A DNA stretch of 64,000 bases from Calditrichota bacterium (GTDB lineage: Bacteria > Zhuqueibacterota > Zhuqueibacteria > Zhuqueibacterales > Geothermadaptataceae). The stretch spans positions 990,336 to 1,054,335 of the forward strand of contig QQUE01000002.1 in the NCBI GenBank assembly GCA_008501765.1, given 5' to 3'. The notes below the pieces were generated by a model, which worked only from the letters and a program-made list of their open reading frames with translations, did not search any database and had not been told where the DNA came from. Positions 17,786 to 42,636 of the stretch are shown in pieces. A program made the translations under genes and the position numbers. The number at the start of each line of letters is the position of its first letter. Positions within the stretch are counted from its first letter, which is position 1.

Positions 17786-18123
17786 TTTACCGCATGAGTA
17801 CCAGTTGCCTCTCATCACAAAATTCAATTCGAAATATTTCATTTTCTGATATTTAGTAAAATGAACAATCAATGCCTCATCAAATTTTGGGATACATTTC
17901 CAACAAGTCTTTCAAAATCGTATTTTTCCACATTTATGAAATTCTGAATCTGATTGCAGCGCCAGATTTAGGCAGTAATTTTTAATTTTCCATCAATTGG
18001 CCTCGTATTTGCGTTAAATTTTGCGAAATAGCATTGTTATTCGTTTTTGAGGTGAACCATTTTTTTTTAAATAAAAAAAATTCAAAACACAGGTTTATTT
18101 TATTGATGATTAGGTATTCGATA
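17786..18123. other. Intergenic region before the heparinase-like gene
   Basis: It is AT-rich, with no recognised gene or clear terminator. A short segment at about 17999-18030 (TTTGCGTTAAATTTTGCGAAAT) resembles part of the inverted-repeat region near 28050, which may be chance. Confidence 0.4.
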
Positions 18124-20514
18124 ATGGCACAAAAAGTAAATTTAAATACTCTGTTTTCTGGCTTAACGATAGCATTAATCTTCTCAACGAATCTCTTCTC
18201 GCTGCCTTTTTTTTCCAAAAATGGAGGCAATGCAGCTGCAACAGAGCATCCGAAACTATTTTTCAACGCAGATGAAATTAATAACCTGCGACAGAAAGCT
18301 CAAACGACACATGCCGAAATTTGGGCACCAATAATTGACTACGCGCAATGGCACCTTGATGACGATGCTCCACCCGTCTCGGCACCGGATGAGGGACAAA
18401 CTGCCTACCGCAATTATGCCAATCGGCTCATTCCTTTCGCATTTAGCGCGGTAATCACAGATGCGGACTCAATTAAAAATTTCGTAAAGTCCTATTTATT
18501 GACGCTTGCATCTTGGGATCAATGGGGGAATAAGCACACCCGTGATTTGGCGCTGGCCCACATGATCTTGGCCAATTCCCTGGCCTACGATTGGCTGTAT
18601 TCGGAGTTGACTGAAAATGAACGCCAGATTATTCGCAGCAGCCTTGGCGATTGGGCTGAAAAAATGTACGAGGCGAGCTCTGGCCCCCGGGAAATGGATT
18701 GGGGCAACTGGTGGCGGAAATCGTATATGCAAAATCATCACTGGATAAATAATTCTGCCCTCGGAATTGCCGGCATTTTGCTGCTGGATGAAGATAATCG
18801 TGCTCAAAAATGGCTTGATCAAGCCACCGACCAAATGGAGCGGGTGAAATTTTTATTTGATGGAATTGGTGATGGCAGTTGGCACGAAAGTATGCATTAT
18901 CAAAGTTATGGCTTAACTTTATCGCTGCCGTTTCTCTATAGTTTAAAACAAAATCTACAGATTGATTTGCTGCCACAGAATTATTTAAAGAATTATACAG
19001 ATTGGAAAATATACAACTACCTTCCCGGTTCAAAATGGCCAATTTTCTCTCACGGGGATTTTGAAACTGACTGGGGAATTGCCTATCCACCGCAAAATAT
19101 TTTACGCTTTATTGCAGCAGAATATCAGGATCAGCATGCAGAATGGATGGCACAAAAAATTATCAATACCGATGGTCGATATGCGAATCAATGGCGGGCG
19201 CCGTGGTATGTATTCGAATTTTTATACTACGAACCCGCTGTTCTTGCCCAGGCTCCACAAGATATGGATTTGACAGCTGTTTTTCCAGATTTTACCGGTG
19301 TCATCTGGCGAACAAGCTGGGCTGATGACGCACTTGTTTTTGGTTTCAAAACTGGCGCTTATGGGGGCCTATTCGCCTCAGATACGTTTATAGAAGGCTC
19401 TTATCCGTGGGAGCGACCCTACCCTGAAACCGGATGCCAGTTGAATATCGGGCACAATCACGATGATACCAACAGCTTTTATCTTTATGGGCGCGGGACC
19501 TGGTTGGCCAACGAAAGCGAAGGAAACGGCGATTATGAGTCCAGTCTGCATAATACAATTCTCATCGATGGACAGAGTCAATATCGACCGCCCGCTACCT
19601 GGAAGGATGCGAATGATTTTGAAGAAAGTAGCGGTGCACTGCAAGCCCATTTTAGCAGCGCTAACTACAATTTTATTTCTGCGGATGCGACCAATCGTTA
19701 CAAAAATACGGCCGGGATCACCAAGGTAAGTCGCGACATCCTATTTGTAAAACCTGATTACTTTTTGATTTTTGACCAGATTCAGGCTGAATCACCGCAT
19801 ATTTATGAATGGATTTCTCACTTTGGAACTGAGGTCGGGATTGAGGGAAATTGGATAAAAGGCGAGGGGGAAGGTGAGCACATCCTCGGTGTTGGTATTT
19901 TGTCGCCCACTGATTTCACTGTAACTACTGGAAATGACGGCAAACCATTCGCCCGCATTCGTCCGACAAATCCCGGTAGAGATACGGATTTTATTACAAT
20001 ACTAAATCCAACCACCCGGTCTGATTGGCCGAATCTGCCCGATATCTCACTTGTCACGGAAAATGAAGCAGCGCGGTTGATAAAAGTTGTTAATAAAAGT
20101 GGCGCAGGCTGGTTTGATCATGTGATTTCGGCAAAGAAAATATCTGGAATTTCACCTGTTTCCCAGTATCAAAGCGATGCCCAATATGCAATTATCCGAC
20201 GCGATAATTCGGGTGCCCTTACAAGACTCTTGCTGAACAACGGGACTTACCTGAAGGATGATTCCCGGGAATTGGAACTGGTTGTTGCAGAAGATCACGA
20301 GCTTTTTATCGATATCGATTATGCCCAGGCAACGGTACATTTACTTGGCCATGTAGGTGGTCAAATCCGGTTGTTTGGACCGGCGGTAAATACCGTTATT
20401 TCAAATGGGAATTCCGTACCCTTTGGAAAAACCGGCGATTTTATAATTATTAATGCAGATCAGGTTGCCCCTCTAAAACCAAAAGGAATTCAAATTGAGG
20501 TGAAACAGGATTAG
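18124..20514 (+). CDS. Secreted heparinase II/III-type polysaccharide lyase homologue
   Basis: I place the start at the ATG at 18124, which has TTAGG about 9 bp upstream; ATG 18106 is an alternative. The result is 796 residues with a signal peptide (FSGLTIALIFSTNLFSLPFF). An N-terminal alpha-toroid domain begins HPKLFFNADEINNLRQK. The C-terminal beta-sandwich contains IGHNHDDTNSFYLYGRG and SLHNTILIDGQSQYRP, the Hepar_II_III signature with His residues near the active site. The family cleaves uronic-acid polysaccharides, and several homologues sit in exopolysaccharide loci. It converges with the EPS locus only 13 bp from its last gene. Confidence 0.8.
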   Translation: MAQKVNLNTLFSGLTIALIFSTNLFSLPFFSKNGGNAAATEHPKLFFNADEINNLRQKAQTTHAEIWAPIIDYAQWHLDDDAPPVSAPDEGQTAYRNYANRLIPFAFSAVITDADSIKNFVKSYLLTLASWDQWGNKHTRDLALAHMILANSLAYDWLYSELTENERQIIRSSLGDWAEKMYEASSGPREMDWGNWWRKSYMQNHHWINNSALGIAGILLLDEDNRAQKWLDQATDQMERVKFLFDGIGDGSWHESMHYQSYGLTLSLPFLYSLKQNLQIDLLPQNYLKNYTDWKIYNYLPGSKWPIFSHGDFETDWGIAYPPQNILRFIAAEYQDQHAEWMAQKIINTDGRYANQWRAPWYVFEFLYYEPAVLAQAPQDMDLTAVFPDFTGVIWRTSWADDALVFGFKTGAYGGLFASDTFIEGSYPWERPYPETGCQLNIGHNHDDTNSFYLYGRGTWLANESEGNGDYESSLHNTILIDGQSQYRPPATWKDANDFEESSGALQAHFSSANYNFISADATNRYKNTAGITKVSRDILFVKPDYFLIFDQIQAESPHIYEWISHFGTEVGIEGNWIKGEGEGEHILGVGILSPTDFTVTTGNDGKPFARIRPTNPGRDTDFITILNPTTRSDWPNLPDISLVTENEAARLIKVVNKSGAGWFDHVISAKKISGISPVSQYQSDAQYAIIRRDNSGALTRLLLNNGTYLKDDSRELELVVAEDHELFIDIDYAQATVHLLGHVGGQIRLFGPAVNTVISNGNSVPFGKTGDFIIINADQVAPLKPKGIQIEVKQD

Positions 20515-20527
20515 CTCGATTGAATTT

Positions 20528-21253
20528 TCAACCTCGTTTTTGGGCACAAATTAGAACCCAGGGACTGAGCATATAAAAACTGTTCAGAAAGAGTGCTTTT
20601 TCAAGAAAGGCAGCCGAATTAACCAGGTGACTTTTGCTATGTCTGTTGAAGGGAAGCCAATAATAACCGGTGACAGCCTTGATTGAAAATCCATTTTCAA
20701 CAAGCATATCGAATAATTCCGCCGTAGTAAACCTTTCCTCATTTTCCCAAAGCGGACGATTGAAAACGGTATTTGCCAGTTTCCTGATATGCCTGCGGTA
20801 ATTATTCCTGTTCAATGCCTGTAAAATTAAGATTCCCTCATCGGCGAGGAGTCGTGCACATTCCCGAACAAATCGGTTGGTATCCAAATATTCGAAGCAT
20901 TGAATAGCCAGCAGTCTGTCGAAAGATTGATCAGCGAAGGGGGTTGAATGCGCATCGCTGATAACTGTTTTCGCTTGCGGACAGTGCTGCTTTAATAATC
21001 GCAGAGCCGAGGCATTGGCATCCATACTGACAACATCCATTTTGTTTTTGAGCAATAATTTGGATAACCGACCTGACCCGCAACCGACATCCAATATTCG
21101 AACAGGCAGCTCGTTAATTGGAAGCCATCGATTTATAAATTTCCATTCGTAATTAATCAGATATTTTCCTAACGCCGTACTATTTGAGGTGTCCCAATGA
21201 AATGCAAATTTCTCTTCCGAATCCTGTGTTTTGTTCAATAAATTTTCTGTCAT
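20528..21253 (-). CDS. Class I SAM-dependent methyltransferase
   Basis: The 241-residue protein carries motif I ILDVGCGSGRLSKLL near residue 55 and an acidic motif II (VVSMDANAS). A Methyltransf_11-type core with FDRLLAIQCFEYLD and an acidic post-motif follows. The substrate is not evident. It is the last gene of the minus-strand EPS locus. The upstream FemAB-like gene ends at 21250, so the two overlap by 4 bp and are probably translated together, which hints at a small molecule or polymer modification. Confidence 0.85.
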   Translation of the reverse strand: MTENLLNKTQDSEEKFAFHWDTSNSTALGKYLINYEWKFINRWLPINELPVRILDVGCGSGRLSKLLLKNKMDVVSMDANASALRLLKQHCPQAKTVISDAHSTPFADQSFDRLLAIQCFEYLDTNRFVRECARLLADEGILILQALNRNNYRRHIRKLANTVFNRPLWENEERFTTAELFDMLVENGFSIKAVTGYYWLPFNRHSKSHLVNSAAFLEKALFLNSFYMLSPWVLICAQKRG

Positions 21254-22386
21254 CGAATTCGAATCATATTAAGTATTTTTTTCAGAAATGGCGTATTAAT
21301 TATATGTATGAATATGGAACTGTACAACGCCTGTAAAAATCCATTGGGGAGAAATTCAAAGGGACCGGGATTTGAAACGATATCGCCTCCAAAGCCAATT
21401 TTGAATCGATGAATTGAATTGTTCAGAAAATCTGGCAAAGGTTTACCTTCCAGGGTGAGTTTTGCAGCTGCTGGCGAAATACCTTCAAAATCATAATATC
21501 GAAATCCTGCTGCTTTGGCCCACTGAATAGCATGCCAATGCATTAGTTCGTTGGGTTTCAGATTCTTCTTTTTAGCGAACCAACCCCCTCTTTTATAAAT
21601 AATTGTATCGCCAAAAGTAATTAATAATACGGCAGATAAATCATGGCCGTCGTGGTGCGTTATAAAAAGTTTAATAAATCCATCCGGATGAAACTGCTCC
21701 CATAATCGCAAGAAAAACTCCAGGGATTCTGCTGGAAAATCCTGTCTTTTTGCAGTCGCAGTTAACAAATTATGGAATGCTTTAAGATCATCTATATTTC
21801 CTTCGCGGACGGAGATTCCCTGGCGCTGTGCTTTGCGGATATTGTAGCGGGTTTTTGATTTCATTCGAGCAAGAATATCACCCGGCTCTTGATGCAAGTC
21901 AACCAGCACCGTTGCTACTGGGGCGAATGAAAGCGACGATGATTTAAAGCCGGAATTAATGAGTGCATCGGTGTATTCAACCTGGCAGCGGGGCGGCTGA
22001 ATAATTATATGCCTGATGTGACACAGTTTGAGTTGCTTTTTAAGCTCTTCCATAATGAGCTCAAATTGTTCGATATCGAATTTTTTGAAGACCGGGCCTT
22101 TGGGAACATAGGCAAAAGAGCCGATATATTTTAGCGGTACGGCACGATAAAGCATTTGTGCCCCGGATACAATTTTGCCGAAATCTTTAATTATGATATT
22201 TACAAATTGCCATCCCTGAACTGATTTAACATTGCCCCACCTGCAACTTTGCACATGGTTTGCCCCATCGACGCTGAGCAGAAAATCGTCCCATGCTTCA
22301 TCTCTCTGGTTGCGGGTTATATGAACTGTAAATCGATTAGTTTGTTGTTTTGGGGCTGCCAAAAAAGTTTCTTCTGTTGGATTCAT
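21250..22386 (-). CDS. FemAB/GNAT-type aminoacyl- or acyltransferase
   Basis: The 378-residue protein has the double-GNAT pattern of FemA/FemB/MurM-like transferases: TRYNIRKAQRQGISVREG in the middle and HWHAIQWAKAAGFRYYDFEG near the end. In the classical family these enzymes transfer amino acids from aminoacyl-tRNA to peptidoglycan precursors. Relatives in EPS loci have no proved substrate. There is no signal peptide or membrane helix. It is 4 bp over the methyltransferase start and 118 bp after a second FemAB-like gene. I infer amino-acid or acyl decoration of the polysaccharide. Confidence 0.8.
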   Translation of the reverse strand: MNPTEETFLAAPKQQTNRFTVHITRNQRDEAWDDFLLSVDGANHVQSCRWGNVKSVQGWQFVNIIIKDFGKIVSGAQMLYRAVPLKYIGSFAYVPKGPVFKKFDIEQFELIMEELKKQLKLCHIRHIIIQPPRCQVEYTDALINSGFKSSSLSFAPVATVLVDLHQEPGDILARMKSKTRYNIRKAQRQGISVREGNIDDLKAFHNLLTATAKRQDFPAESLEFFLRLWEQFHPDGFIKLFITHHDGHDLSAVLLITFGDTIIYKRGGWFAKKKNLKPNELMHWHAIQWAKAAGFRYYDFEGISPAAAKLTLEGKPLPDFLNNSIHRFKIGFGGDIVSNPGPFEFLPNGFLQALYSSIFIHIINTPFLKKILNMIRIR

Positions 22387-22504
22387 AGTTGTGGTTCCGG
22401 GTGTTAGTTTGGTGAATTTGAAACAAGAGGCCTTATTTTTTGATTAATTTGAAAGCAAAGAGAAATCAGCAGTGGATTGATTCTAATCGATATTGAATTT
22501 AACT

Positions 22505-23524
22505 TTAAGTAAAAAATTTATATAATAGGTCTCCTGCTTTTTCGGTGATTTCATCTGGCACGGATTCGTCGGTAAATAAATCAGTCAGCTGCGGTAACAA
22601 ACTGCGAATTTGTGCATCCTTTTCACTGACAGATCCTTCCGGGGTGTGCCGTAAAAACGATATAACTTTTTCTTCAGTCGCATATTTTTGTTTGTAGCGG
22701 ATTAGCCCTTCTTGACCCCAATCACTCAATCCGAGATCGAGAAAAGTGGCACTGTTTTTTTTCGCATATTTTATGCCCTCCCACATAAGTAGATCGTTAG
22801 GGCGGATGTTTTGTGCCTCAGGGGCGGAAGCATTAAATTTATAATAAAGATTGTTTTTCCATTTTAAATAGAAGACCCCACCAATTATTTGACCGTCAGA
22901 TTCAGCAAGCATCAATGCGCCTTCGCCTGGTTCAATAAAATTTTTCCAAATATTTTGCAGAAATTTATACGACTGCGCCAACAACCGGTATTTGTCTTTT
23001 CTGATTTTAAGATGTAATTCAAAAAAAGCGCGCAGGTCTGTTTCATGCTCGGCAGTGCGTACCGTAATTCCTGCCTTTTCAGCTTTACGAATAGCCCGCC
23101 TGCTCGATCCATGAATTTTGCTAAAGATTGAATCGAGATCGTCTGTTATATCGCGCCCATGCCAATTCGCACGATTTATTCGCTCAAACCGATCATCCGC
23201 AAGAGGAATAGAATTATGCAAACACCGTACTGTAAGAGGCTGTTTTTCTGATATTAGACTTGTAGTTAATTTTACCCACTGTTCCCTGTTTTGTACTATC
23301 GGATCGCAATAGTCTGAAAATGGCACAGAAACAATTCTGGGTGAGAACATATCATCAATTTTTATAAATGGAATGCCAGCCACAGGTTGATTCTCAGCGT
23401 CGATTAGAATCTTGGCACGCACAGTGAAATCATAAGTTTTTGCCAGTACTTCAAGCCACTTGGGCGAATGAAAAACATCCGATTGGTTTTCTTCGATCAA
23501 TTGCAGCCAATGTTTTGATTGCAA
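22505..23524 (-). CDS. Second FemAB/GNAT-like transferase
   Basis: This 339-residue protein is related in layout to the next gene but divergent in sequence. Landmarks are SSRRAIRKAEKAGITVRTA, LMLAESDGQIIGGVFYLKW (a GNAT beta-bulge region) and DLLMWEGIKYAKKNSATFLDLG, matching the Acetyltransf_6/BioF2-like group. Enzymes of this type are common in exopolysaccharide and exosortase loci. It lies 25 bp downstream of the thymidylate-kinase-like gene, in one transcription unit. The acyl donor is not predictable from sequence. Confidence 0.75.
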   Translation of the reverse strand: MQSKHWLQLIEENQSDVFHSPKWLEVLAKTYDFTVRAKILIDAENQPVAGIPFIKIDDMFSPRIVSVPFSDYCDPIVQNREQWVKLTTSLISEKQPLTVRCLHNSIPLADDRFERINRANWHGRDITDDLDSIFSKIHGSSRRAIRKAEKAGITVRTAEHETDLRAFFELHLKIRKDKYRLLAQSYKFLQNIWKNFIEPGEGALMLAESDGQIIGGVFYLKWKNNLYYKFNASAPEAQNIRPNDLLMWEGIKYAKKNSATFLDLGLSDWGQEGLIRYKQKYATEEKVISFLRHTPEGSVSEKDAQIRSLLPQLTDLFTDESVPDEITEKAGDLLYKFFT

Positions 23525-23549
23525 TGGATTTACTTCTATTAATTCCAGT

Positions 23550-24248
23550 TTATTGGCCCTTCAGGTTTTGTGTTTTATGCATCACTTCTTCATTTATAAA
23601 ACCGATAATATGGTGCTTTACTTCTTTATGAACATTATCAATGTTTTGCGTCACGTCTATTCGAATAAAATGCTTAAAATTACCCCTTTGCCTGAGAATT
23701 GCTTTTCTTCTTCTTTCCAGATACTCCAACGTGCCTTCGTCTTTACGATTTAATAAAACTTCAGGCGGTGCATCGAGAAAGAACACAAGATCAGGTTTGG
23801 GATAGATATGGCGCAATTCCCAATAGTGGATACGATCAGTTGCTCTTTTTGCAACACCGGATGGAGCAAAATCAAAAACTGGGTGCCGGTCATATAAAAT
23901 ATTGTATTTGAAGAGTTGAAATGACCACGAGACAAATTGCTTGTGCCAGTCTTCCGCAATCCTGTTTAACAGTCTTAATGCCGCACCCAATTTACCTCTT
24001 TTGTCAGGCCTGTGTTCCAGATCAAGTTTCGAAGTATTTTCTTGCTGCTGCATATGTTTATACTTTTTTCTCACTAACCTATATTTCAACCAGAAAATGA
24101 ATCGTGACGTCGGCAATGCATATTTGTTCATCCGGACATTCGTCCCCATATATAAATATTTTACCCGAATCGGGAGAGACTTGATTAGCATTTTTGCAAT
24201 CGTCGTTTTACCTGCACCATCGACACCGATGAGCGCAATTGTAAACAT
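23550..24248 (-). CDS. Thymidylate-kinase-like P-loop protein
   Basis: I start at the ATG at 24248, since GGGAGG lies 8 bp upstream and the P-loop follows directly; a longer frame to 24368 adds 40 unlikely residues. The 232-residue protein opens MFTIALIGVDGAGKTTIAKML, a Walker A of the thymidylate kinase type, and has the DRHP motif (YNILYDRHPVFD) where that family has DR(Y/H). A basic lid-like segment, RRKAILRQRG, is present. Housekeeping Tmk is about 205 residues, so a specialised kinase is likely. Embedded in the EPS locus, it may phosphorylate a sugar or nucleotide precursor. Confidence 0.75.
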   Translation of the reverse strand: MFTIALIGVDGAGKTTIAKMLIKSLPIRVKYLYMGTNVRMNKYALPTSRFIFWLKYRLVRKKYKHMQQQENTSKLDLEHRPDKRGKLGAALRLLNRIAEDWHKQFVSWSFQLFKYNILYDRHPVFDFAPSGVAKRATDRIHYWELRHIYPKPDLVFFLDAPPEVLLNRKDEGTLEYLERRRKAILRQRGNFKHFIRIDVTQNIDNVHKEVKHHIIGFINEEVMHKTQNLKGQ

Positions 24249-24276
24249 GGCCAAACCTCCCAATCTTGCGATAGCG

Positions 24277-25404
24277 TTATTTCTGAATTCGTTTAAATTC
24301 GCGCAAACAATACAAATGCATATGTTCATACAATTGATCCAAAGAACAAGGGTATGGGTGTTTAACAATATAACAGGGAAATCCTTTGAGTGCGGCGCTT
24401 AAAAGATCTGTCTGAAGTTCGTCGTATCTTTCAATTAATGGATTGGAAAGATACGGAAATGCAAATTTGAACGCACGATAATATTCGATCAATCCGATCA
24501 ATTCATATCCATTTGCCGCTACCATTTTCTGTACTATATCAGTCGATTTCGTCTCTGTAATCTGGATGTCCTGTTTGTTGTGACTCATCGTGAAAAAAAC
24601 TTTGTCAACTTTGACGATCGGTGAGTTTAACTGTGCTCTAAAAACCTCCTGTGGTTGAATTTTAAATTTTAGCAGTTTTTGAGCTTTTAGATCGATATGA
24701 TTGATTAATTGTACAAAAAGAAATTTGCTTGAATTTACTTTCCGTAGTAGTTTTGCACACCACGTTAGAAAATGTATCGTATCGAAAAGAATTTTTTTTG
24801 ATGTACTAAGGTATCGTTTTAGTTCAGGGACGTATTTTAATTGCCAATCGGAAATCTCAAGCGGATAGGGAATACCGAGCAATTTTTTCCCATCTGCAGA
24901 TAACATCAGCCATTCATCACCAATATAGAACGCACCTGCTTTTAAAAATGCAAGTAAATTACTGGTTTTGCCCCCCTTCGCCCACGCGAGATTCAATATG
25001 TTCTTGCCCTGAAAATTGAAGGCAGATGCGTGCAGGGGGACATATTTACTTTTTAAAAACATCAGTTTGATGATTTCGGTCAGCAAGGGATAACCAGCTC
25101 CACGACGATAAACTATTTCACACGATTCTCCAAGTTGCGCCATCGGAATCCTGGCTATTGGAAAGCCGTTATGTTGGCAGAGCAGATAAAATCCTTCGGC
25201 GTTGAAAGCAACCGAATTTATACCGAGATAATCAAGTTCCTCAGTGGCGAATTCATCGACGAACTGAATCTTCAGCTCAGCAGTCTCGGAAGAGTCTGGA
25301 TCCATTATTGCGCCATACCGATTTATGAATAAATCAATATCAGCCTGTCGGGCATCGAAAAGGCTGATCCGGACAATTTTATGGATGCTTAGATTTGTCG
25401 CCAT
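24277..25404 (-). CDS. HprK-like P-loop protein of EPS locus
   Basis: The 375-residue protein has a mid-region P-loop-like stretch NLAWAKGGKTSNLLAF with an atypical first residue, preceded by YVPLHASAFNFQGK. This arrangement recalls HPr kinase/phosphorylase-like proteins in surface polysaccharide loci, where the His of the HASA segment precedes the P-loop. A following GDEWLML would be a Walker B-like segment. The function of these homologues is unproved. It is 28 bp upstream of the thymidylate-kinase-like gene and 3 bp downstream of the ATP-grasp gene. Confidence 0.6.
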   Translation of the reverse strand: MATNLSIHKIVRISLFDARQADIDLFINRYGAIMDPDSSETAELKIQFVDEFATEELDYLGINSVAFNAEGFYLLCQHNGFPIARIPMAQLGESCEIVYRRGAGYPLLTEIIKLMFLKSKYVPLHASAFNFQGKNILNLAWAKGGKTSNLLAFLKAGAFYIGDEWLMLSADGKKLLGIPYPLEISDWQLKYVPELKRYLSTSKKILFDTIHFLTWCAKLLRKVNSSKFLFVQLINHIDLKAQKLLKFKIQPQEVFRAQLNSPIVKVDKVFFTMSHNKQDIQITETKSTDIVQKMVAANGYELIGLIEYYRAFKFAFPYLSNPLIERYDELQTDLLSAALKGFPCYIVKHPYPCSLDQLYEHMHLYCLREFKRIQK

Positions 25405-25407
25405 AAA

Positions 25408-26664
25408 TCAGGAAGATTTATAATCTTCTCCTCCCTGTTCCTTTTTTGATAGCAATGCCGGTAAAGCGTTTTTAATGGCAGTAAAAAATGGCACCAGATC
25501 TCTAATCGAAAATAAGGCATAAGATTTTCGACCTCGAACCGAAGTAAGCCATTGCCAAATTGATAATTCACCGCGCCGCAAGTGATGAATCGCCGCTTGC
25601 GTGTCGCGCAACTCGTGAATCCATTTTCGTCCTGAAAAATTCTGGGTGCGGTTTTTGGGAAGAGGCATATTTAATGCGTGGCAATACATCGTGTAGAGAA
25701 AATCAACGCCACCTGCTTCCGCCATCGAAGAACGTCCGGTCGGCCGGCCAACATTTGGCTCAATTATCAGATTTTCTCCGGTATTTTCATCACGTTTCAT
25801 TTCCAGGTAGCCCAGCCCCCAAAATTTGAATTGCTTGAAAAGCCGATGTGTTTCTGCGACAACCCGATCATTGCGAAATTCTTCTGCAAGACAAGCCTGG
25901 CCCGTTTTCGGCAGCCATTGACGAAGCTTGCGCGAGGTAAATGTTACCAGTGGTTCCGAGTTTTTGTCAAAATAACAATTACAGGTAAAATGGTTCTCGT
26001 TTGGCCCTTCGATCCAGTTTTGCACGAGTAAAATATCAATCCACTTGTGATAATGATCATAAAGGCTTAAAAATTCTTGTTTGGAATTTGCTTTCAATGC
26101 TTTGACTTTCGTGTGCTTTGTCCAGGATTCAGGGCGCCATGGTGGTTTCAGGAGACAAGGGTAGCTCATTTTTCCTGCCGCATTTTCCGCGTCTTCCCGG
26201 GATTTCAGGATAAAAGTTTTTGGCACAGGCAACCCTTTTTGTTGAGCCAATTCGTAAAACAACACCTTGTCCAGCAGCGATTCAATAATTTCGTGTGCTG
26301 GCATCAAAATATGATACCATTGTTCGAGCCGTTCCCGGTTGCGGGAAATGTTGAGTACATTTTTATCCTGGCAGGGAAAAATGACCGGTTTGCTGTCAAA
26401 CTGCGGCCCGATTTTTTCCAACAAGGTTATCAGTTCTTCTCCTGCGGTATCTGCAAATAAAATTTCCTGGCAACTGTTGGTTTTGCAACAATGATAATCA
26501 GGGTTTTTTGCTATTCCGATGACAGGAATTTTATAACCAGATAATATTCGAGCTGTACTCAGGCCCTGCAGGCAATCCAGTCCGATGACGAGGGCTGGAG
26601 GATTTGCCGAGCTGGTGCGAACATTTTTCGAATTTTTACTATTTGGACTCATAAGGCTCCACAA
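25408..26664 (-). CDS. ATP-grasp carboxylate-amine ligase-like protein
   Basis: The 418-residue protein has an N-terminal pre-ATP-grasp domain (LVIGLDCLQGLSTARIL), a lid segment with LLDKVLFYELAQQKGLPVPKT, and an ATP-grasp core ending in ENLIIEPNVGRPTG, where the metal-binding Glu and Asn lie. The family forms an amide bond between a carboxylate and an amine with ATP. EPS-linked members have not been assigned a substrate. Together with two FemAB-like genes downstream it suggests amino-acid chemistry on a glycan. The C-terminal 90 residues are rich in Lys and Arg. Confidence 0.8.
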   Translation of the reverse strand: MWSLMSPNSKNSKNVRTSSANPPALVIGLDCLQGLSTARILSGYKIPVIGIAKNPDYHCCKTNSCQEILFADTAGEELITLLEKIGPQFDSKPVIFPCQDKNVLNISRNRERLEQWYHILMPAHEIIESLLDKVLFYELAQQKGLPVPKTFILKSREDAENAAGKMSYPCLLKPPWRPESWTKHTKVKALKANSKQEFLSLYDHYHKWIDILLVQNWIEGPNENHFTCNCYFDKNSEPLVTFTSRKLRQWLPKTGQACLAEEFRNDRVVAETHRLFKQFKFWGLGYLEMKRDENTGENLIIEPNVGRPTGRSSMAEAGGVDFLYTMYCHALNMPLPKNRTQNFSGRKWIHELRDTQAAIHHLRRGELSIWQWLTSVRGRKSYALFSIRDLVPFFTAIKNALPALLSKKEQGGEDYKSS

Positions 26665-26687: not shown

Positions 26688-27881
26688 TTAGAGAGATTCA
26701 TAGGCCGTGACCAGGTTTGGTTCCTGAAATTGCCAGGCGAGCTCTGTCTCAATTCGTTTTCTGCCAATTTTTCCCATTTTTTGTCGTTGTTCGGGATTGT
26801 CCATCAATTCCGCGATACACCGTGCTAAATCGGCTGGATCATTCGGTTGAGCATAGGACGCAGCTTCCAGGGCCGTAACCGTGTGTTCTTTGAGTCGGAA
26901 AGCAACTATCGGCTTTGCCAGGGCCATGTATTCCATCATTTTAATCATTGTCGAACGATTGGTAAAATCATTCTTTGGGTCCGGATCGACGCAAATATCG
27001 GCGGTTGATAAATAGCGTAACATATCGGCATCGGGAATGAAGCCGGTAAATCGGACATAGGTATCCAGCTTCAGCTTTGTCGTCAGCTTTTTCATATCTT
27101 CCCACGCATCGCCCTCGCCGATGATTACGCAGTAAAAATCGGTTCGCCCAAGCTCAGTGACAAGGCAATGAATCGCCCGGATTAGATTGTCAACACCATC
27201 GTGGTAGCCCATATCGCCAACGAATCCGATAATCGTTTTGCCCATGGCCTGCAATTCCTGATCGGGCTCGGATAAACGCAGCCGCTTTAATTCAGGGCCA
27301 TTTCGCACGATCGAGACTTTTTCCTTGTCGACTTTGCCGCGGGTTACAGCAATTTCTTTGTAAGATTCGTTAGTCGCGATGACGTGATCCGCAAAGCGAA
27401 AAGTCATTTTTTCAATCGCCAGCAAGGCTTTGTAAACAATCTTATTGCCTTCGCCGGAAAAACGTGCATAATACATTTCAGGGGATAAATCATGGTGGTC
27501 GAAGACAAATTGCTTGCCGAAAATTTTGTAAAAAGCAGCAATAAAAACAAAGGTGTCCGGTGGATTGTGTGCATGAATAACATCAAAACCTCTATTAAAA
27601 AAGACGTACAGTGATAAAAAAAAGGATGCCAGCATCGAATAACTGTATTCCCAGATATAACCTAAAAATCCGTCCGCCTGCACCGGTTCCGGATATCGAA
27701 AAGCGTGCACATTATCGATTGTCTCCTTCCACGGCTGGTGTTTTCGCCCAGGGCTTATGATGGAAACGTGATGGCCCGCTGCTATGAGCGTTTTTGCTTC
27801 TCTTCGAACCCGGCCATCGTGGGGATAGGGATTATTCTCCAAAAGCATTAAAATTTTTTTACCGGTAGTATTATTCGCCAA
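26688..27881 (-). CDS. Glycosyltransferase family 4
   Basis: This 397-residue GT-B enzyme begins KKILMLLENNPYPHDGRVRR, an N-terminal pattern typical of GT4 enzymes in polysaccharide loci. The nucleotide-sugar site has KMMEYMALAKPIVAF, with the expected acidic residue of the EX7E motif. It should transfer a sugar from a nucleotide donor to a lipid-linked chain at the inner face of the membrane. The donor and linkage cannot be read from sequence. It lies 23 bp upstream of the ATP-grasp gene. Confidence 0.9.
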   Translation of the reverse strand: MANNTTGKKILMLLENNPYPHDGRVRREAKTLIAAGHHVSIISPGRKHQPWKETIDNVHAFRYPEPVQADGFLGYIWEYSYSMLASFFLSLYVFFNRGFDVIHAHNPPDTFVFIAAFYKIFGKQFVFDHHDLSPEMYYARFSGEGNKIVYKALLAIEKMTFRFADHVIATNESYKEIAVTRGKVDKEKVSIVRNGPELKRLRLSEPDQELQAMGKTIIGFVGDMGYHDGVDNLIRAIHCLVTELGRTDFYCVIIGEGDAWEDMKKLTTKLKLDTYVRFTGFIPDADMLRYLSTADICVDPDPKNDFTNRSTMIKMMEYMALAKPIVAFRLKEHTVTALEAASYAQPNDPADLARCIAELMDNPEQRQKMGKIGRKRIETELAWQFQEPNLVTAYESL

Positions 27882-28203
27882 TTGCTTTAAGCTCCAAATT
27901 TTCTGATATTTATCAATTCAATCCACTGGCTATCCAAATAACTCCGCAAGGATAACTTATTATTTTATAAAGCCAAACTATAAATCACTCGAATTTACAC
28001 GAATATTTTTTTGAGTAAACGGGCCTGTATTTTCAATTATTTTTATTCGTAAAATTTGCGAAATTAGCGGACAATTATCTATTAATCCTAGTTTTAAGTT
28101 TGCTGACTTATTTGGATAACCAGAATTCAATCCTGAATGTAGCCCCGTTTTTTGCCGGGAACCCAAATTTTAAATTCAATTAATTATTTTTATTTACAAT
28201 CGC
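27882..28203. other. Gap inside the EPS locus
   Basis: This is the longest gap within the otherwise dense minus-strand EPS locus. No gene is seen. It holds an imperfect inverted-repeat structure, listed separately, and may split the locus into two transcripts. Confidence 0.5.
27926..28123. repeat. Imperfect inverted repeat, MITE-like
   Basis: Outer arms 27926-27941 and 28108-28123 are complementary at 15 of 16 positions. Inner segments around 27987-28010 and 28043-28062 share an inverted ATTCGT-AAATT core. The spacer is AT-rich and non-coding. The size (about 200 bp) and foldback form recall a small non-autonomous element, but I see no target-site duplication. Confidence 0.45.
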
Positions 28204-29106
28204 CTACAATGGCTTCTGATGGACGATAGTCAAAATGATGCAATTCAGATCTTCCTGGGAATAATGCTGAAATTTAGGTTGAATTTTTATCCCGCCAATT
28301 TCCCGGTTTTCACATATTTTCGTAATAAAATTATATCCATATTTTTCAAATAATTTGAGCCAGTCAGACATTTGCAGCCTGTTGATATACTGCACATCAT
28401 TTTCGAAGAGATACTTCCACATAAACTCAGAATAGCGCATGTAATTTTTCGGCGATTCCTTTTTGTCATAATGTGTGTGATGATCGTCAATTCCGATCTG
28501 GTGAATTGAAAGGCCACCGGGTTTTAAAATCCGGAACATTTCTTTGATATTATTTTCATAGGATTTTACATGCTCCATCACATGGAAGCTGTAAATGCAA
28601 TCAAAGGAATTATCTGCAAATTGGGCCAAAGAACCGCTGGTTTCCAGGATGTATTCCATGTTGCGCAATTTATAGAGTTCGTCAAAACTGCCCGTCTGCA
28701 GAATCTGATCAATCGATTCAATCTGTTGGCTGTAATCCTCATCACACGATTGAAAATGCTCTTTTAAATTATTAATGTACGTTTTCATTACATCGAGCTG
28801 GCGGTTGTCCCAAATATCAAACAGTGTTGAATTAATGTCGTGGAACAGGCTCAAGTACAAGGCATACCAGTGAAACCAGCCAGTGCCAATTTCCAGAAAT
28901 TTACTTCCCGGCTTGATTTCCATATTTTGTTCACACAACTCTCGAAACAGTTTCCCCCGGTCGAAATAGGATTTGCGTCGTCTGGCTTTTACTTTCAAGC
29001 GGCGTCGCTGACCAATAGTATTGCCCAATTTACGATATATTTTCTTCGTTGTACCGTTCAGTGAAAACATTTTTAAAGCGACTGCTGTAGATAAATATCG
29101 AAGCAT
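28204..29106 (-). CDS. SAM-dependent methyltransferase of the EPS locus
   Basis: The 300-residue protein has motif I FLEIGTGWFHWYAL and the conserved FDCIYSFHVMEHVKSYENN followed by FRILKPGGLSIHQIG, all marks of class I methyltransferases. A basic N-terminal segment (residues about 20-45) may bind membrane or RNA. It probably modifies a sugar or lipid-linked intermediate. It ends 6 bp before... the next upstream gene's stop lies at 29113, so the two genes are tightly packed. Confidence 0.8.
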   Translation of the reverse strand: MLRYLSTAVALKMFSLNGTTKKIYRKLGNTIGQRRRLKVKARRRKSYFDRGKLFRELCEQNMEIKPGSKFLEIGTGWFHWYALYLSLFHDINSTLFDIWDNRQLDVMKTYINNLKEHFQSCDEDYSQQIESIDQILQTGSFDELYKLRNMEYILETSGSLAQFADNSFDCIYSFHVMEHVKSYENNIKEMFRILKPGGLSIHQIGIDDHHTHYDKKESPKNYMRYSEFMWKYLFENDVQYINRLQMSDWLKLFEKYGYNFITKICENREIGGIKIQPKFQHYSQEDLNCIILTIVHQKPL

Positions 29107-29112
29107 GAATAG

Positions 29113-30279
29113 TTACCCTTTTTGTATTTCAGAAAATTTCTCAATGCCTTTCGCATGTAATTTCAATTCTGACAAAAAATGAAAAAGAATCATGCAGAGA
29201 TAGCGTGCATATGATCTTTTATCAGTCAGAAATCCGTAATTTTTTCGTGAGTAGAACTGCATATTGCCATCCGTTTTTTGCTGTGAAAGGAGCCGGCCAT
29301 AGGCCCGGTCGGCCAATTTTTGATAATCACCAAATCCCATCACCGTGGCGCGCCGCAGGGCAGCCCCGAGGGCGGTTGTGTAGTACGCTACTTCCGGAAA
29401 TTCTTTTTCACACGTGTAGCGGCAGGCACCGGAATCGGTGACACCGGTAACGAGATAACGTGATAATTTTCGCAGAACCGGCAAAATCGTCTGGTCCTGT
29501 GTTAGATCGAAGTAGTCTGCCAAATTTAAAAATTCAAAAGCATTGTACTGATGGCAAAGGAAATGAATCCGGTCAGATTTGTGCTTTTCTCCAGGCGGTC
29601 TCACCGCGTAGGGGAGTTCGCCGGAATCGAGTTGCACTGTGTTAAGCCAGTTAACCATCGGGACGCAGATTTCAAGATAGCGATCATCCCGGGCTTGTTC
29701 TGCGAGCATGGCAAAAACTCGCACGATCGAAGCAGAGTTGTTCGGGACCATCGCTGTACCATAATTGCCAAAATAATTGATTGCGATGAATTCCCCATCC
29801 TTCTGAAAACCAATTTCGTTCACAGCGTATTCGTACCATTTTTTTGCTCCTTCCAGCAGTGGCGCGTGGAAAGTTCTGGCGAAAGTTTCAAGCATTCCGA
29901 TGGTGGCGTAATTGCCTTCAACTGTGGCAATTCGACCTCGCCACTCCGGATTCGGATATTCCCAATATCCCTCGGGTCGCTGCACTTTTAGCAGATAATC
30001 GGAACAGGCGATGGCCATTGCCTTGCAGGATTTAATATCCCCACAGCCAAGGTCATGCATCAACCAGTTGCTGGCAATCCAATATTTTTGTGCCTGCGAA
30101 TAAACGAGATTGTCGGACCACGGCATAAAATTTAAGTAGCCCTTGACAAAGCGCCCCACCCGGGCATTAAAACGAATCCCGGGATCCGGCCCGACAACGG
30201 CTTCTCCATTCCAATGTGTTTTTTTAATGTGACTGTGCAAACGCAAAATCGCCTCTGCAATTTGCTGTTTCGAGGTCAT
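29113..30279 (-). CDS. Alpha-toroid-fold protein of unknown function
   Basis: I do not recognise this 388-residue protein as a named enzyme. It is rich in Trp, Tyr and Leu and has evenly spaced helical repeats such as YWEYPNPEWRGRI, YATIGMLETFA and NAFEFLNLADYFDLT, consistent with an (alpha/alpha)6 toroid as in uronyl epimerases, lyases and glycosidases. There is no signal peptide, so it acts in the cytoplasm or on a lipid-linked intermediate. It sits 3 bp downstream of a GT4 gene and is probably co-translated. A C5-epimerase or hydrolase role is only inference. Confidence 0.6.
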   Translation of the reverse strand: MTSKQQIAEAILRLHSHIKKTHWNGEAVVGPDPGIRFNARVGRFVKGYLNFMPWSDNLVYSQAQKYWIASNWLMHDLGCGDIKSCKAMAIACSDYLLKVQRPEGYWEYPNPEWRGRIATVEGNYATIGMLETFARTFHAPLLEGAKKWYEYAVNEIGFQKDGEFIAINYFGNYGTAMVPNNSASIVRVFAMLAEQARDDRYLEICVPMVNWLNTVQLDSGELPYAVRPPGEKHKSDRIHFLCHQYNAFEFLNLADYFDLTQDQTILPVLRKLSRYLVTGVTDSGACRYTCEKEFPEVAYYTTALGAALRRATVMGFGDYQKLADRAYGRLLSQQKTDGNMQFYSRKNYGFLTDKRSYARYLCMILFHFLSELKLHAKGIEKFSEIQKG

Positions 30280-30282
30280 TTT

Positions 30283-31470
30283 TCAAACTACCTTTTTCGT
30301 TTTATCAGTTTCTGTGATCGGATTTTTTCCATTTTTGATTTTAGCACAGGTCTGGAGAATATTTTCCAGCCGGTCGCTGTTTTTTAGGGAAAACATGGTC
30401 TCTGCACGGCGCCGGTTTTTTTGGCCAACGCTTATTCTAAGCTCAATTTTATCACAGGCTTGCGCGAGAGCACCTGCGAGCTGTTCAACATTGTTTTCCT
30501 CGACCAGAAAATCGTCAATTGCTTCCGGAATGCCTGCGTGATATGTACTCACAACCGGTTTTCCGCTGGCCATTGCCTCCGCGATTACGTTGGGAAATCC
30601 CTCGTGGTCACCGTGGCGGTCCGGCCGGGAAGGCAGGCAAAAAATATCGCATTCGCGATACAGCGCCCGCAATGCATTGCCGCTTTGTTCACCAAAGAAT
30701 GCAACGCTGTCCAATATTCCTATATTTTCAGCCATTTGCCGTCCATCAACTTTCACGATGGAGCGGTTAATATCTCCGACAACCCACAATTCGATATCTT
30801 GGCGATTCATTAATTTAATGGCGTTGAATAAAACTTCATGGCCTTTCTTTTCAGCGAAAAATCCAACGATTAATATTTTAATTTTAGGCTGTGGATGAAA
30901 CTTTTCCAGCTCAACAATCTGCCTGACGATATCGATTTCAGATTCATTGGCTGCAAATCGTTCCACCAGCAGTTTTTTATTGTGATCTGTTATCGTTACA
31001 ATCCGATCACAGTTGGCCAGTGCTTTCATAAACATTTTTTCGTTCGGATTCCGGTATAACTCATAAGCACGAATTGTTACGACCAGGGGGATACCTGTCA
31101 GCCGTTTACAAAAATAACCGGTGAAGAGTTTGTGGTCACCGAAATAGGCAAAAATTATGTCCGAATTTTTTAATTCTTCATAAAAACTCACACCAATCAT
31201 GAAATCTTTTACTGCATTTAATTGCCGCGCTTCTCGCAACAAACGGAGATATTTTGCACTCATTTTAAAAAAGACTGCAAACTGGCTGCGAATAATTCCG
31301 AGCCGGGTAACAGGAAATACGTTCCATCGATCGGTCGGATTGTACAGGCCACGATTGTTCAACAACGTGAATATTTTAAGCTCGTGCTTTTTGTCGAGCA
31401 AGGCTTCAATGTCCCGATGCAGGAATTTTGTCGGCCCGTATTTCATGCTTACGATCATGGCAATTTTCAT
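30283..31470 (-). CDS. Glycosyltransferase family 4
   Basis: This 395-residue GT-B enzyme has the C-terminal donor site ending AEAMASGKPVVSTYHAGIPEAI, the family hallmark EX7E. The acceptor domain begins MKIAMIVSMKYGPTKFLHRD. It should add a sugar to the growing repeat unit. The donor is unknown. The start overlaps the upstream GT2 stop by 4 bp, so translation is coupled. Confidence 0.93.
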   Translation of the reverse strand: MKIAMIVSMKYGPTKFLHRDIEALLDKKHELKIFTLLNNRGLYNPTDRWNVFPVTRLGIIRSQFAVFFKMSAKYLRLLREARQLNAVKDFMIGVSFYEELKNSDIIFAYFGDHKLFTGYFCKRLTGIPLVVTIRAYELYRNPNEKMFMKALANCDRIVTITDHNKKLLVERFAANESEIDIVRQIVELEKFHPQPKIKILIVGFFAEKKGHEVLFNAIKLMNRQDIELWVVGDINRSIVKVDGRQMAENIGILDSVAFFGEQSGNALRALYRECDIFCLPSRPDRHGDHEGFPNVIAEAMASGKPVVSTYHAGIPEAIDDFLVEENNVEQLAGALAQACDKIELRISVGQKNRRRAETMFSLKNSDRLENILQTCAKIKNGKNPITETDKTKKVV

Positions 31471-32489
31471 CGCTCATCCTCTTCGGGCGGAGTTTTTTTG
31501 AGAATCTCAAAATTTTCAGGGTAATCCTTCGGGGTCAACGGCGTTTTAAAGAAGCCACGAACCGTACCATCAATAATTAAAATTCTGTGCAGCAACGTTC
31601 CCAGAGTGAGATAGAAACTGCCTCTGCGCAAAGTGGTACTGACAAGGAAAGCGGCAAAGCCAGCAAGCCAAAATAAAATATAGGCACTTTCGCCGGAGCT
31701 GAGAAACCAGAAAAAAGCAGTTAATCCTGCAATAATTATAGCTAATGGAACGGTGGCGAAATCGCGTTCTTTAATATAGGGCCACAGGTATTTATTTTTC
31801 AGGTTGTACCGTAAATTTTGCCCCGAACCCATATATAAATTCCGTCTCCAGCGACCAATTTTGGTCGAGAGCTTGTCTGATGGATCGGAATAATGGAGAA
31901 CAATTGTTTGCTTTAGCTCGATAATTTTATAGCCGTTGTAGCGAATTCGCAGGCAAATATCCGGTTCTTCGTCGGAGCAAAGATAGGGATTAAATTGTCC
32001 TATTTCATCGAGTGTCGAACGGCGATACATGGCAGCGCCGCCACCCTTTTCTACAGGAACACCACGATCATTTTCAATTACTGGCAAAACGGGTTTGTCA
32101 GCAGATTGGGTTTCTTCAGGTAAATCGATCCGTTGCCCGGTAATAGCGGCTATTTCCGATTGATTTTGGATCAGCTCCATAGCTTTGTCGAGCCAATGGG
32201 GACACAGCTCCATATCGCCATCGAGGAAGAGAATAAAATCGCCAGTTGTGTGTTTGAAACCAACATATCGCCCTGCTGCCGGAGTTAGAAATTTACTGTC
32301 GTGCAGTCGAATGATATTGATCGGATAGTGCTGGGCAATTTCGGTTGTGCAATCGTCTGAAGCTGAATCAACGAGAAGGATTTCCCTCGCTTGAATACCT
32401 TCCGTTTTCCTCAAAACAGATTCGATCAACCGTTTGATATTCCAGTCCTGGTTTTTACTAATAAGAACGACTGATAGAATAATTTTCAT
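31467..32489 (-). CDS. Glycosyltransferase family 2, membrane-associated
   Basis: The 340-residue protein has a GT-A domain: SVVLISKNQDWNIKRLIES at the N-terminus and the metal-binding DXD-type motif FLDGDMELCP near residue 92. A later CLRIRYNGYKI region follows. The C-terminal 100 residues include about two to three hydrophobic segments, so it is membrane-bound. It would transfer a sugar to a lipid-linked acceptor at the cytoplasmic face. It lies 64 bp after the Wzx gene. Confidence 0.9.
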   Translation of the reverse strand: MKIILSVVLISKNQDWNIKRLIESVLRKTEGIQAREILLVDSASDDCTTEIAQHYPINIIRLHDSKFLTPAAGRYVGFKHTTGDFILFLDGDMELCPHWLDKAMELIQNQSEIAAITGQRIDLPEETQSADKPVLPVIENDRGVPVEKGGGAAMYRRSTLDEIGQFNPYLCSDEEPDICLRIRYNGYKIIELKQTIVLHYSDPSDKLSTKIGRWRRNLYMGSGQNLRYNLKNKYLWPYIKERDFATVPLAIIIAGLTAFFWFLSSGESAYILFWLAGFAAFLVSTTLRRGSFYLTLGTLLHRILIIDGTVRGFFKTPLTPKDYPENFEILKKTPPEEDER

Positions 32490-32553
32490 TGTTTTTTGTG
32501 CTACTCCGGGTCAAAAGCCATTAAGAATTGATTCGCTTACTGGCATTCTGTTT

Positions 32554-34005
32554 TTATTTCGAATTAAGCGTCAGGTATCGCAGTTTAATCTGATCAAGAT
32601 TTCCAATTGAGATATAAAGCAGTGCAAACAGCGTCGCGAGATAGAACAAGTTGGCTGATATCGCTGCAATGATTACGTTAATGTCCTGTAAAAATATGAG
32701 CAATAAGGCCATAAAAAAAACAGCACAAAGTGATTTCCAGCTTACTTCCCGCACTTCAAGATTTTTGAACATGCGGGACACAGGAACATAATGTTGGATA
32801 AAGTCGATTATTCTCACACTGAGCATCGTAAATGCGCTGCCGATGACGCCATATTGACTTACGAGAATAAAACCTAAAAAGACCATGGCGATCAAATCGA
32901 CCACCAGAATTTGCAGCGTTTTTTTCTCTTTAAAACTGGCGATTAATGCGACACCCAATACCTTGGACGATGCGCGTAATATGAGTATCCAGACAATGAT
33001 TTTGAGGACGGCCGCCGACTGGGAAAAATCTTCATTACCATAAATAGTGACAAAGAGGGCGTCCGACAGAAAAAAGAGCGTGATAGTTGCAGGCAGCACG
33101 ATAGCTAATAATATTTCCCAGACGCGTTTTGTCATTTGCTTCAGTTTGCCCATGCCACTTTCAAAACTTCGGCACATTACCGGGTAAACCCCGACAACGA
33201 CGCTTTCAAACAATAAACTAATTGGGGATAAAAGTTGATTGGCTGCGCTGAGGATTCCAACCTGGACTTCATTGGTAAATTTTGAAAGCAGAATAATATT
33301 AAAACTCGAAGTCGCCGCGTTGACGCCATTAATTCCTAAAAATGTAGTTGAGGATTTTGCCATGACGAAACATTGTTCACGGTCAAATTTTGCTCCGGTT
33401 GGCGTCATCTGACGTAATAAAAACCATAATTTTATCAAGAAGTTTATAAAATAAGTTAGAATAAAAAACACAATCAGTAGTTGCAGTGAATTCTTCCACC
33501 AAAGCAGGATAAATACGCCGGAAATTCTGAAGACATTGACAAAGAAATTGGAGTAAGTGATATAATGCATTTGTTCCCGAGCTTGAAAGAGCGCATCACA
33601 AACGGACGCCAGAGAAAAGGGCAATAAGCCAAGGGAAAGGAGAATAATTGTAGAACTCGTTTGAAAGGAGTATTGCATTATCCAGACAAAGACAATCAAA
33701 AAGAGAATCGCGGCCAGGGATGTGGCACTAACAACGACACTGGCATTGATCAGGAAAAACTCGGTTTTGTCGTGATCTTTTGCTACTTCTCGCGTTATAA
33801 AGGATTGCAATCCAGCGACGGCAAGCATCTGAAAGGTTTGAAAAAATGTGAAGGCAAGGGCCATCTGTCCAAATTCCAATGAGCCTAAAAACCGCGCGAC
33901 CAATACATAAGTAATAAACGCGGATATGCGGTTCATCACATCGCTGGCGAGAATTGATACAGCGTTCGAAAATATTCGGAGGGCGTTTCTTTGTAATTTT
34001 AGCAT
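32554..34005 (-). CDS. Wzx-type oligosaccharide flippase
   Basis: The 483-residue protein is strongly hydrophobic, with about 12-14 membrane helices. It starts with the amphipathic segment and FITYVLVARFLGSLEFGQMA, typical of Polysacc_synt proteins of the MOP superfamily. These flip undecaprenyl-linked repeat units to the periplasmic side. Its pairing with the adjacent polymerase/ligase-like gene and the Wzz and Wza genes upstream supports a Wzx/Wzy-dependent pathway. Confidence 0.92.
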   Translation of the reverse strand: MLKLQRNALRIFSNAVSILASDVMNRISAFITYVLVARFLGSLEFGQMALAFTFFQTFQMLAVAGLQSFITREVAKDHDKTEFFLINASVVVSATSLAAILFLIVFVWIMQYSFQTSSTIILLSLGLLPFSLASVCDALFQAREQMHYITYSNFFVNVFRISGVFILLWWKNSLQLLIVFFILTYFINFLIKLWFLLRQMTPTGAKFDREQCFVMAKSSTTFLGINGVNAATSSFNIILLSKFTNEVQVGILSAANQLLSPISLLFESVVVGVYPVMCRSFESGMGKLKQMTKRVWEILLAIVLPATITLFFLSDALFVTIYGNEDFSQSAAVLKIIVWILILRASSKVLGVALIASFKEKKTLQILVVDLIAMVFLGFILVSQYGVIGSAFTMLSVRIIDFIQHYVPVSRMFKNLEVREVSWKSLCAVFFMALLLIFLQDINVIIAAISANLFYLATLFALLYISIGNLDQIKLRYLTLNSK

Positions 34006-34063
34006 TTATTCCTTGCCGGGGCCATTAAATAAGCGCTCGGCTGGTGTCTTTTCACGAGATGGA

Positions 34064-35527: not shown

Positions 35528-35595
35528 AATAATTCGTGGTGCAATCTAAATCAAAGGTGCTCCTCGTTTGAACGGACAAACGAGGAGCGCTGAAT

Positions 35596-36696: not shown

Positions 36697-36713
36697 TTTA
36701 ACTTCCTTTCAAT

Positions 36714-37778: not shown

Positions 37779-37814
37779 TGTGTAAATCCTTTCTTGATTT
37801 TTATTATCCCAGCA

Positions 37815-39033: not shown

Positions 39034-39110
39034 GGCATTTTTCCCCTGCACAGGTTCCGTTTATCTAAACAATGGAAATCCCTTTCTGATGATTTATAAA
39101 GCCCTACGTC

Positions 39111-39929: not shown

Positions 39930-39988
39930 TTAATTATTTCTCCAGCATTAACTATTGTGCTCAGTGTTTTTTGATTCCCAAGTATACA

Positions 39989-41197: not shown

Positions 41198-41199
41198 TT

Positions 41200-42633: not shown

Positions 42634-42636
42634 TTT

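Follow-up and report, generated by a model that had tools for sequence, protein, structure and literature searches.

The 64,000-nucleotide stretch analysed here (the window) comprises positions 990,336 to 1,054,335 of contig QQUE01000002.1, from a Calditrichota bacterium whose genome is 5.9 Mb and 98.9% complete. It carries an exopolysaccharide (EPS) locus whose distal part encodes an ATP-grasp ligase, two P-loop kinases and two Fem-type transferases. These five genes split into three evolutionary units, namely a kinase pair resembling HPr kinase (HprK)/phosphoenolpyruvate carboxykinase (PEPCK) and thymidylate kinase (TMK), the ATP-grasp ligase, and the two Fem transferases. The three units differ in range: the association of the kinase pair with the ligase extends across phyla and exceeds chance, and the Fem transferases are local. 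The five genes are as follows.

25408..26664, minus strand: ATP-grasp ligase, called ATPgA below (fold model and conserved residues)
24277..25404, minus strand: HprK/PEPCK-like P-loop kinase (profile and fold model)
23550..24248, minus strand: thymidylate-kinase-like P-loop kinase (Pfam Thymidylate_kin, 39.9 bits, cut-off 27)
22505..23524, minus strand: Fem2, a GNAT/FemAB-like transferase (Pfam Acetyltransf_6, 72.8, cut-off 22; FemAB, 32.1, cut-off 24)
21250..22386, minus strand: Fem1, a FemABX-type transferase (Pfam FemAB, 121 bits, cut-off 24)

A sequence-only reading of this DNA had described a closely spaced cassette of five genes inside an EPS locus. All five reading frames were indeed found on the minus strand between 21250 and 26664, in the order ATP-grasp, HprK-like, TMK-like, Fem2 and Fem1, with gaps of 3, 28, 25 and 118 bases, and Wzx, Wzy, Wza and Wzz genes lie around them. 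They are the distal part of a 21-gene EPS run and no free-standing cassette.

The HprK-like and TMK-like kinases travel as a pair. Among 82 genomes of the phylum, the HprK-like protein was detected in 14 and the TMK-like protein in exactly the same 14 at E<=1e-30 (16 at E<=1e-20). Strong ATPgA matches (E<1e-180) were obtained in 13 genomes, which are 12 of the 14 with the HprK-like kinase and 1 of the 68 others, a genome of the window's own genus designated G069. Among 245 genomes of the Propionibacteriales, the order of the Nocardioides genome that carries locus L098, two have the HprK-like kinase, the same two have the TMK-like kinase, and four have the ATP-grasp protein, these two included. 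Which loci were chosen has no bearing on the phylum and order counts, although these use a loose first look that scored only part of the TMK candidates. The TMK-like kinase was also present in six of seven genomes of other lineages that were reached via their loci.

For the gene neighbourhoods, 84,980 species genomes were scanned with an alignment of the HprK-like protein, which gave 71 loci, with records labelled KSB1, Calditrichia, Acidobacteria, Chloroflexi, actinobacterial genera, Planctomycetota, Gemmatimonadetes, Latescibacterota, Ignavibacteria and others. The window and 14 longer stretches taken from the phylum search brought the total to 86; removing L096, in which the profile did not find HprK, and 11 duplicates left a set of 74 loci. 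Many are short contigs (38 reach at least 15 kb), open reading frames were taken from stop to stop, and L034 and L035, near-copies filed under different phyla, are both counted. The profiles for ATP-grasp, TMK and PEP mutase were built from members of these loci, so that within-locus counts lean towards detection. A single TMK was found in 45 loci, a nucleotidyltransferase-TMK fusion in 18, the window-type ATP-grasp gene in 34, another ATP-grasp family in 19, a PEP-mutase-like gene in 20, a 2-hydroxyacid dehydrogenase in 22, a polysaccharide deacetylase in 30 and Fem genes in 3. HprK, a TMK of either type and an ATP-grasp gene occur together in 46 of the 74. The distance from HprK is at most 300 bases for the window-type ATP-grasp gene in 17 of 34 loci and at most 3 kb for the single TMK in 36 of 45. 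Fisher values were calculated as well, but they take no account of common ancestry and carry no weight here.

A comparison within the genus separates the units further. In G069 (97% complete), gene order is conserved along the EPS run, from Wza through to the lyase, and the lyase and 18 of the 21 genes are 54-79% identical to those of the window. Its EPS operon retains Fem1, Fem2 and the ATP-grasp gene and lacks the HprK-like and TMK-like genes and the methyltransferase MT1, and a genome search detected no HprK-like or TMK-like copy elsewhere in G069. Because ATP-grasp, HprK, TMK and Fem2 keep the window's order in G027, which is of the same class, loss of the kinases in G069 is the simpler history. 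In this comparison the kinases behave as a pair that is dispensable to the rest of the EPS operon. The idea of one five-gene cassette does not survive these comparisons, with Fem genes in 3 of 74 loci and a relative that has both Fem genes and the ligase without the kinases. Random co-occurrence, which the sequence-only reading had given as grounds for refutation, does not hold for HprK, TMK and ATP-grasp.

The separability of the kinases in G069 would suit direct phosphorylation, in which the pair acts on the glycan or a sugar precursor to give a phosphorylated EPS, while the ATP-grasp and Fem proteins serve a separate job. The occurrence of the pair with a different ATP-grasp family in 19 loci, and of other kinases, phytase and VTC proteins among the neighbours in relatives, points the same way. 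However, ATPgA and HprK are often nearest genes, and their genome-level association within the phylum is strong, as the spacing and the counts above show. We consider this explanation unlikely.

The HprK-like protein has no match to any Pfam or NCBIfam family at E<=1, the HprK and PEPCK models included. A profile of 37 sequences gave HPr kinases as its four best solved-structure matches (E 0.0011 to 0.036). The AlphaFold2 model (predicted local distance difference test, pLDDT, 90.6) aligned with ATP-dependent PEP carboxykinase over 292 of 375 residues (Z 16.3, root-mean-square deviation (rmsd) 5.2, 9% identity) and with HPr kinase over the core only (135 residues, Z 13.0, rmsd 3.2). As modelled, the protein has a PEPCK/HprK-type fold, with an HprK-like P-loop core and an apparent likeness to PEPCK over nearly its full length. 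This is its likeness to the HPr kinase/phosphorylase and PEP carboxykinase superfamily, from which it differs in having only ~8-14% identity and no family-model match. H125, G145-K146 (the P-loop) and D163-E164 are invariant in the alignment and lie at what we take to be the superfamily's site for metal and nucleotide. Two scans with the HprK-like query found no relatives in viral contigs, and a single weak partial match among plasmids (21% of the query, in Halobaculum).

Since the HprK core is the fold of a protein-serine kinase family, the HprK-like protein could be a protein kinase that regulates EPS synthesis, with the TMK-like protein making its signal or acting as a nucleotide kinase for sugar donors. 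The same EPS run contains a tyrosine kinase and a GGDEF-like remnant, the latter recognised by reading the sequence. Nevertheless, the apparent whole-length similarity of the HprK-like protein is to PEPCK, a small-molecule enzyme, the TMK-like protein scores below the dTMP kinase cut-off, and the kinases co-occur with acid-making genes. We regard regulation as very unlikely.

For the TMK-like protein, the listed TTG start at 24368 would overlap the HprK gene, and the ATG at 24248, preceded by GGGAGG, fits better. The protein lies under the dTMP kinase equivalog cut-off (TIGR00041, 44.3 of 83.25 bits), and the P-loop G-D-G-G-K-T and a D-R pair are invariant among 15 sequences. The fusions counted above join it to an uncharacterised nucleotidyltransferase domain (NTP_transf_5, below cut-off), e.g. 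at 4555-5931 of L017. A defence role for the five genes was rejected, PADLOC giving weak P-loop matches for the TMK-like protein only and none for the other four. A lasso-peptide-like reading, which we take to call for an HprK-type kinase, a nucleotidyltransferase and an asparagine synthetase, was also rejected: the NTP_transf_5-TMK fusions exist, but none of the four neighbours of about 600 residues scanned in the relatives' loci is an asparagine synthetase. These four are APH-type kinases or have no match.

ATPgA gave only below-cut-off matches in Pfam. Its AlphaFold2 model (pLDDT 90.7) has an ATP-grasp fold (best Z 25.9), with a CarB-like protein, PurK, PylC and L-amino-acid ligase as neighbours at Z 23-26. 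E288, K290, E302, N304 and R307 are invariant across 24 sequences, the window protein being 40-60% identical to its 23 aligned homologues. According to the model and this alignment, ATPgA has an ATP-grasp fold with a conserved acidic/Asn site, the E..N..R of carboxylate ligases, in keeping with the ligase-type gene claimed earlier. The second ATP-grasp family in the relatives' loci is about 23% identical to the window type.

Fem1 aligned with FemX over residues 27-305 (E 1.8e-15) and with the lipid II glycyltransferase (E 2.4e-18), while Fem2 matched 61 residues of one solved chain only (E 7.8e-07). By sequence comparison, Fem1 is a full-length FemABX relative and Fem2 a more distant one, which bears out the presence of an aminoacyl-transfer-type gene. 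Unlike the known aminoacyl transferases of this family (FemX, lipid II:glycine glycyltransferase), Fem1 is encoded in a Wzx/Wzy-type EPS operon. A Fem-type protein within an EPS pathway is also represented by HfsK of the Caulobacter holdfast, a FemX-like tandem GNAT protein that affects polymer properties, whereas no kinase pair or ATP-grasp partner is reported beside it in the part of that source available to us (PMC5362036). Its catalytic role is called unclear there, which agrees with the earlier statement that no substrate has been proved for such families in EPS loci (PMC5362036). An XrtA/PEP-CTERM exosortase EPS system was considered and rejected: PF09721 has no match in the window's own genome, TIGR03019 reaches 61 and 67.1 (Fem2) of the 260.35 needed, and TIGR03015 reaches 265.9 of 324.5 with the ATPase of the EPS run.

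The closeness of Fem1 to these aminoacyl transferases, and of the ATPgA fold to L-amino-acid ligase and PylC, would suit an amino-acid decoration in which every one of the five genes serves to load the polymer with amino acids and the P-loop proteins help to activate precursors. The rarity of Fem genes among the 74 loci stands against it, as do the absence of the kinases from the Fem/ATP-grasp locus of G069 and the fact that elsewhere the kinase pair goes with PEP-mutase-like genes without Fem. We judge it quite unlikely that amino acids are the whole story. The broader idea of an acyl decoration of the EPS is plausible from the gene content, and the neighbours that recur (PEP-mutase-like proteins, other kinases, phytase) speak more for phosphorus chemistry than for the activation of amino acids.

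The PEP-mutase-like gene was found in 20 of the 34 ATPgA loci and in none of the 40 others (0 of the 19 with the other ATP-grasp family), and the dehydrogenase is present in all 20. The hallmark EDKX5NS separates PEP mutase from its relatives, according to the parts of two reports available to us (PMC6697681, PMC12723261). It is carried by six of the 20 proteins, from records labelled Acidobacteria, Calditrichia, Bacteroidota, Chloroflexi, Ignavibacterium and Laterigemmans (planctomycete). Four proteins were compared with the NCBI PEP mutase cut-off (TIGR02320, 319.6 bits), and the two with the hallmark score above it (404 and 390). The gene order is Fem, dehydrogenase, PEP mutase, HprK, TMK, ATP-grasp, Fem in the Ignavibacterium locus and HprK, TMK, dehydrogenase, PEP mutase, ATP-grasp in the planctomycete locus. 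Such gene content points to a phosphonate-decorated EPS in the 20 loci with the PEP-mutase-like gene.

The window itself belongs to a different branch. Its ATPgA falls in a clade of six (L039, L044, L050, L030, the window and L102; support 100/99) without a PEP-mutase-like gene. Because the PEP mutase label takes 8 changes on the ATP-grasp tree (12.6 in shuffles), this gene has been gained and lost repeatedly. The likeness to phosphonoglycans made with PEP mutase is that relatives of the ligase adjoin PEP-mutase-like genes in EPS loci; the difference is that the window has no PEP mutase. Moreover, the portion of PMC6697681 available to us stresses nucleotidyltransferases, whereas the constant partner in ATPgA loci is the hydroxyacid dehydrogenase. 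Phosphonate peptide pathways also have ATP-grasp enzymes, as far as the available parts of PMC7858074 and PMC12723261 go, and the relatives' loci share with them an ATP-grasp gene beside PEP mutase; the relatives' genes differ in lying in EPS loci with the HprK/TMK pair.

Some other neighbours were observed in these loci. In a second EPS locus of G027 (L017, 12459-17033), a 1023-residue CotH-kinase/beta-helix protein, a VTC-domain protein and a DUF4956 membrane protein are encoded between the ATP-grasp and PEP-mutase-like genes, and this family of about 1000-residue proteins recurs in 5 loci. A beta-propeller-type phytase gene (PF02333, E 4.6e-102) directly adjoins the ATP-grasp gene of a related EPS locus (L024, 11897-13204). 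A sugar nucleotidyltransferase and a GHMP kinase lie beside HprK in L026 (7557-9316) and L019 (4345-6688), with SIS-domain genes too in L019, a set that is presumably as for activated heptose.

The EPS run comprises 21 collinear minus-strand genes between 43368 and 20528. The order from 43368 is Wza, Wzz, a TIGR03015-like ATPase, the tyrosine kinase, the GGDEF-like fragment (without a Pfam match) and an initiating sugar transferase, then a Gfo/Idh/MocA oxidoreductase, a DegT aminotransferase, Wzy, Wzx, three glycosyltransferases and a protein without a family, together with two methyltransferases and the five genes. MT1 is part of the same distal end. The protein without a family (29113-30279, 388 residues) is conserved at the same position in two relatives (58-74% identity), and the lyase is kept beside the Fem genes in two relatives. 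The further features are listed below.

18034..20514, plus strand: heparinase II/III-like lyase, facing the EPS run (Pfam Hepar_II_III_C, 36.7 bits, cut-off 24)
20528..21253, minus strand: methyltransferase MT1, sharing 4 bases with Fem1 (Pfam Methyltransf_11, 72.1)
26688..43368, minus strand: remainder of the EPS run, with glycosyltransferases, Wzx, Wzy, initiating transferase, tyrosine kinase, ATPase, Wzz and Wza
35596..36696, minus strand: DegT sugar aminotransferase (QdtB and WbpE among its closest solved relatives)
36714..37778, minus strand: Gfo/Idh/MocA oxidoreductase (best model NF040723, UDP-GlcNAc 3-dehydrogenase, E 2.2e-53, 181.7 of the 450 needed, below cut-off)

Beyond the Wza end (44219-47954), a RimK/glutathione-synthase-like ATP-grasp gene, a gene for a 633-residue protein and an N-formylglutamate-amidohydrolase-like gene are tightly ordered, these names coming from reading the sequence only.

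The similarities of the oxidoreductase and the aminotransferase suggest a C3-oxidase and C3-aminotransferase pair that would make a 3-amino sugar, and none of the 21 genes in the run was recognised as encoding a sugar N-acetyltransferase. With this predicted pair in the operon, a free sugar amine is therefore a plausible target for acylation.

The two kinases and the ligase probably modify the EPS sugar chain with an unusual acyl or phosphorus group. The interpretation that we put forward, tentatively and as somewhat less probable than not, is that the three-unit gene set tailors the EPS repeat unit with amino acids, a small acid and phosphate. The tailoring would take place in the cytoplasm, ahead of flipping and polymerisation. 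The oxidoreductase and aminotransferase would make the 3-amino sugar. Fem1 and Fem2 would acylate a free amine, in all likelihood using aminoacyl-tRNA as the source of amino acids. A further small acid would be attached through its carboxylate by the ATP-grasp enzyme, in amide or ester linkage. The HprK-like enzyme would phosphorylate a hydroxyl of the acid or sugar, and the TMK-like enzyme, whose family converts monophosphates to diphosphates, would add a second phosphate. In the PEP-mutase branch the acid would probably be phosphonolactate, made from PEP via phosphonopyruvate; in the window's branch another acid would take its place.

Several observations weigh against this interpretation. 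The HprK/PEPCK and ATP-grasp folds, as modelled, set the class of chemistry and not the substrate, and the kinases are not needed for the Fem/ATP-grasp step, because G069 manages without them. Neither TMK nor ATP-grasp is within reach of HprK in 14 of the 74 loci, four of which are on stretches above 15 kb. Apart from the six PEP-mutase-like proteins with the hallmark, ten read EDN.FPKRNS and four were missed by the pattern, and the two EDN-type proteins compared with TIGR02320 reach 265 bits, below its cut-off. In the window genome, PEP mutase was rejected, as the search gave only a partial match of 23 bits, below the cut-off of 31.5. Finally, the 3-amino-sugar genes could serve lipid A instead, by what we take to be the GnnA/GnnB pathway.

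The part most worth following is the kinase-ligase set that recurs in EPS loci with a tie to PEP-mutase-like genes, of which full-text searches of an open-access library found no description. In its widest form, the proposal would be a widespread EPS-tailoring pathway, in which PEP mutase, hydroxyacid dehydrogenase, ATP-grasp ligase and the two kinases make an acid of phosphonolactate type or a diphosphorylated one, which is then linked to EPS via its carboxylate, without the nucleotidyl activation that phosphonate glycans usually need. The HprK/PEPCK-like protein would then found a new family of small-molecule or glycan kinases, and the window would be an offshoot in which the phosphonate was swapped for another acid and Fem was added. 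We consider this wide form doubtful. The question is testable in the same-genus genome without the pair and in the named carriers that are not metagenome-assembled genomes, Geodermatophilus, Blastococcus and Nocardioides caldifontis. EPS loci are read as sugar-polymer pathways, and a fixed group of kinases and ligase without an assigned job recurs in them in many phyla. If the set installs phosphorus or phosphonate, environmental bacteria would have a new source of polymers with C-P or phosphate groups, and a kinase family that lacks an assignment would gain a function.

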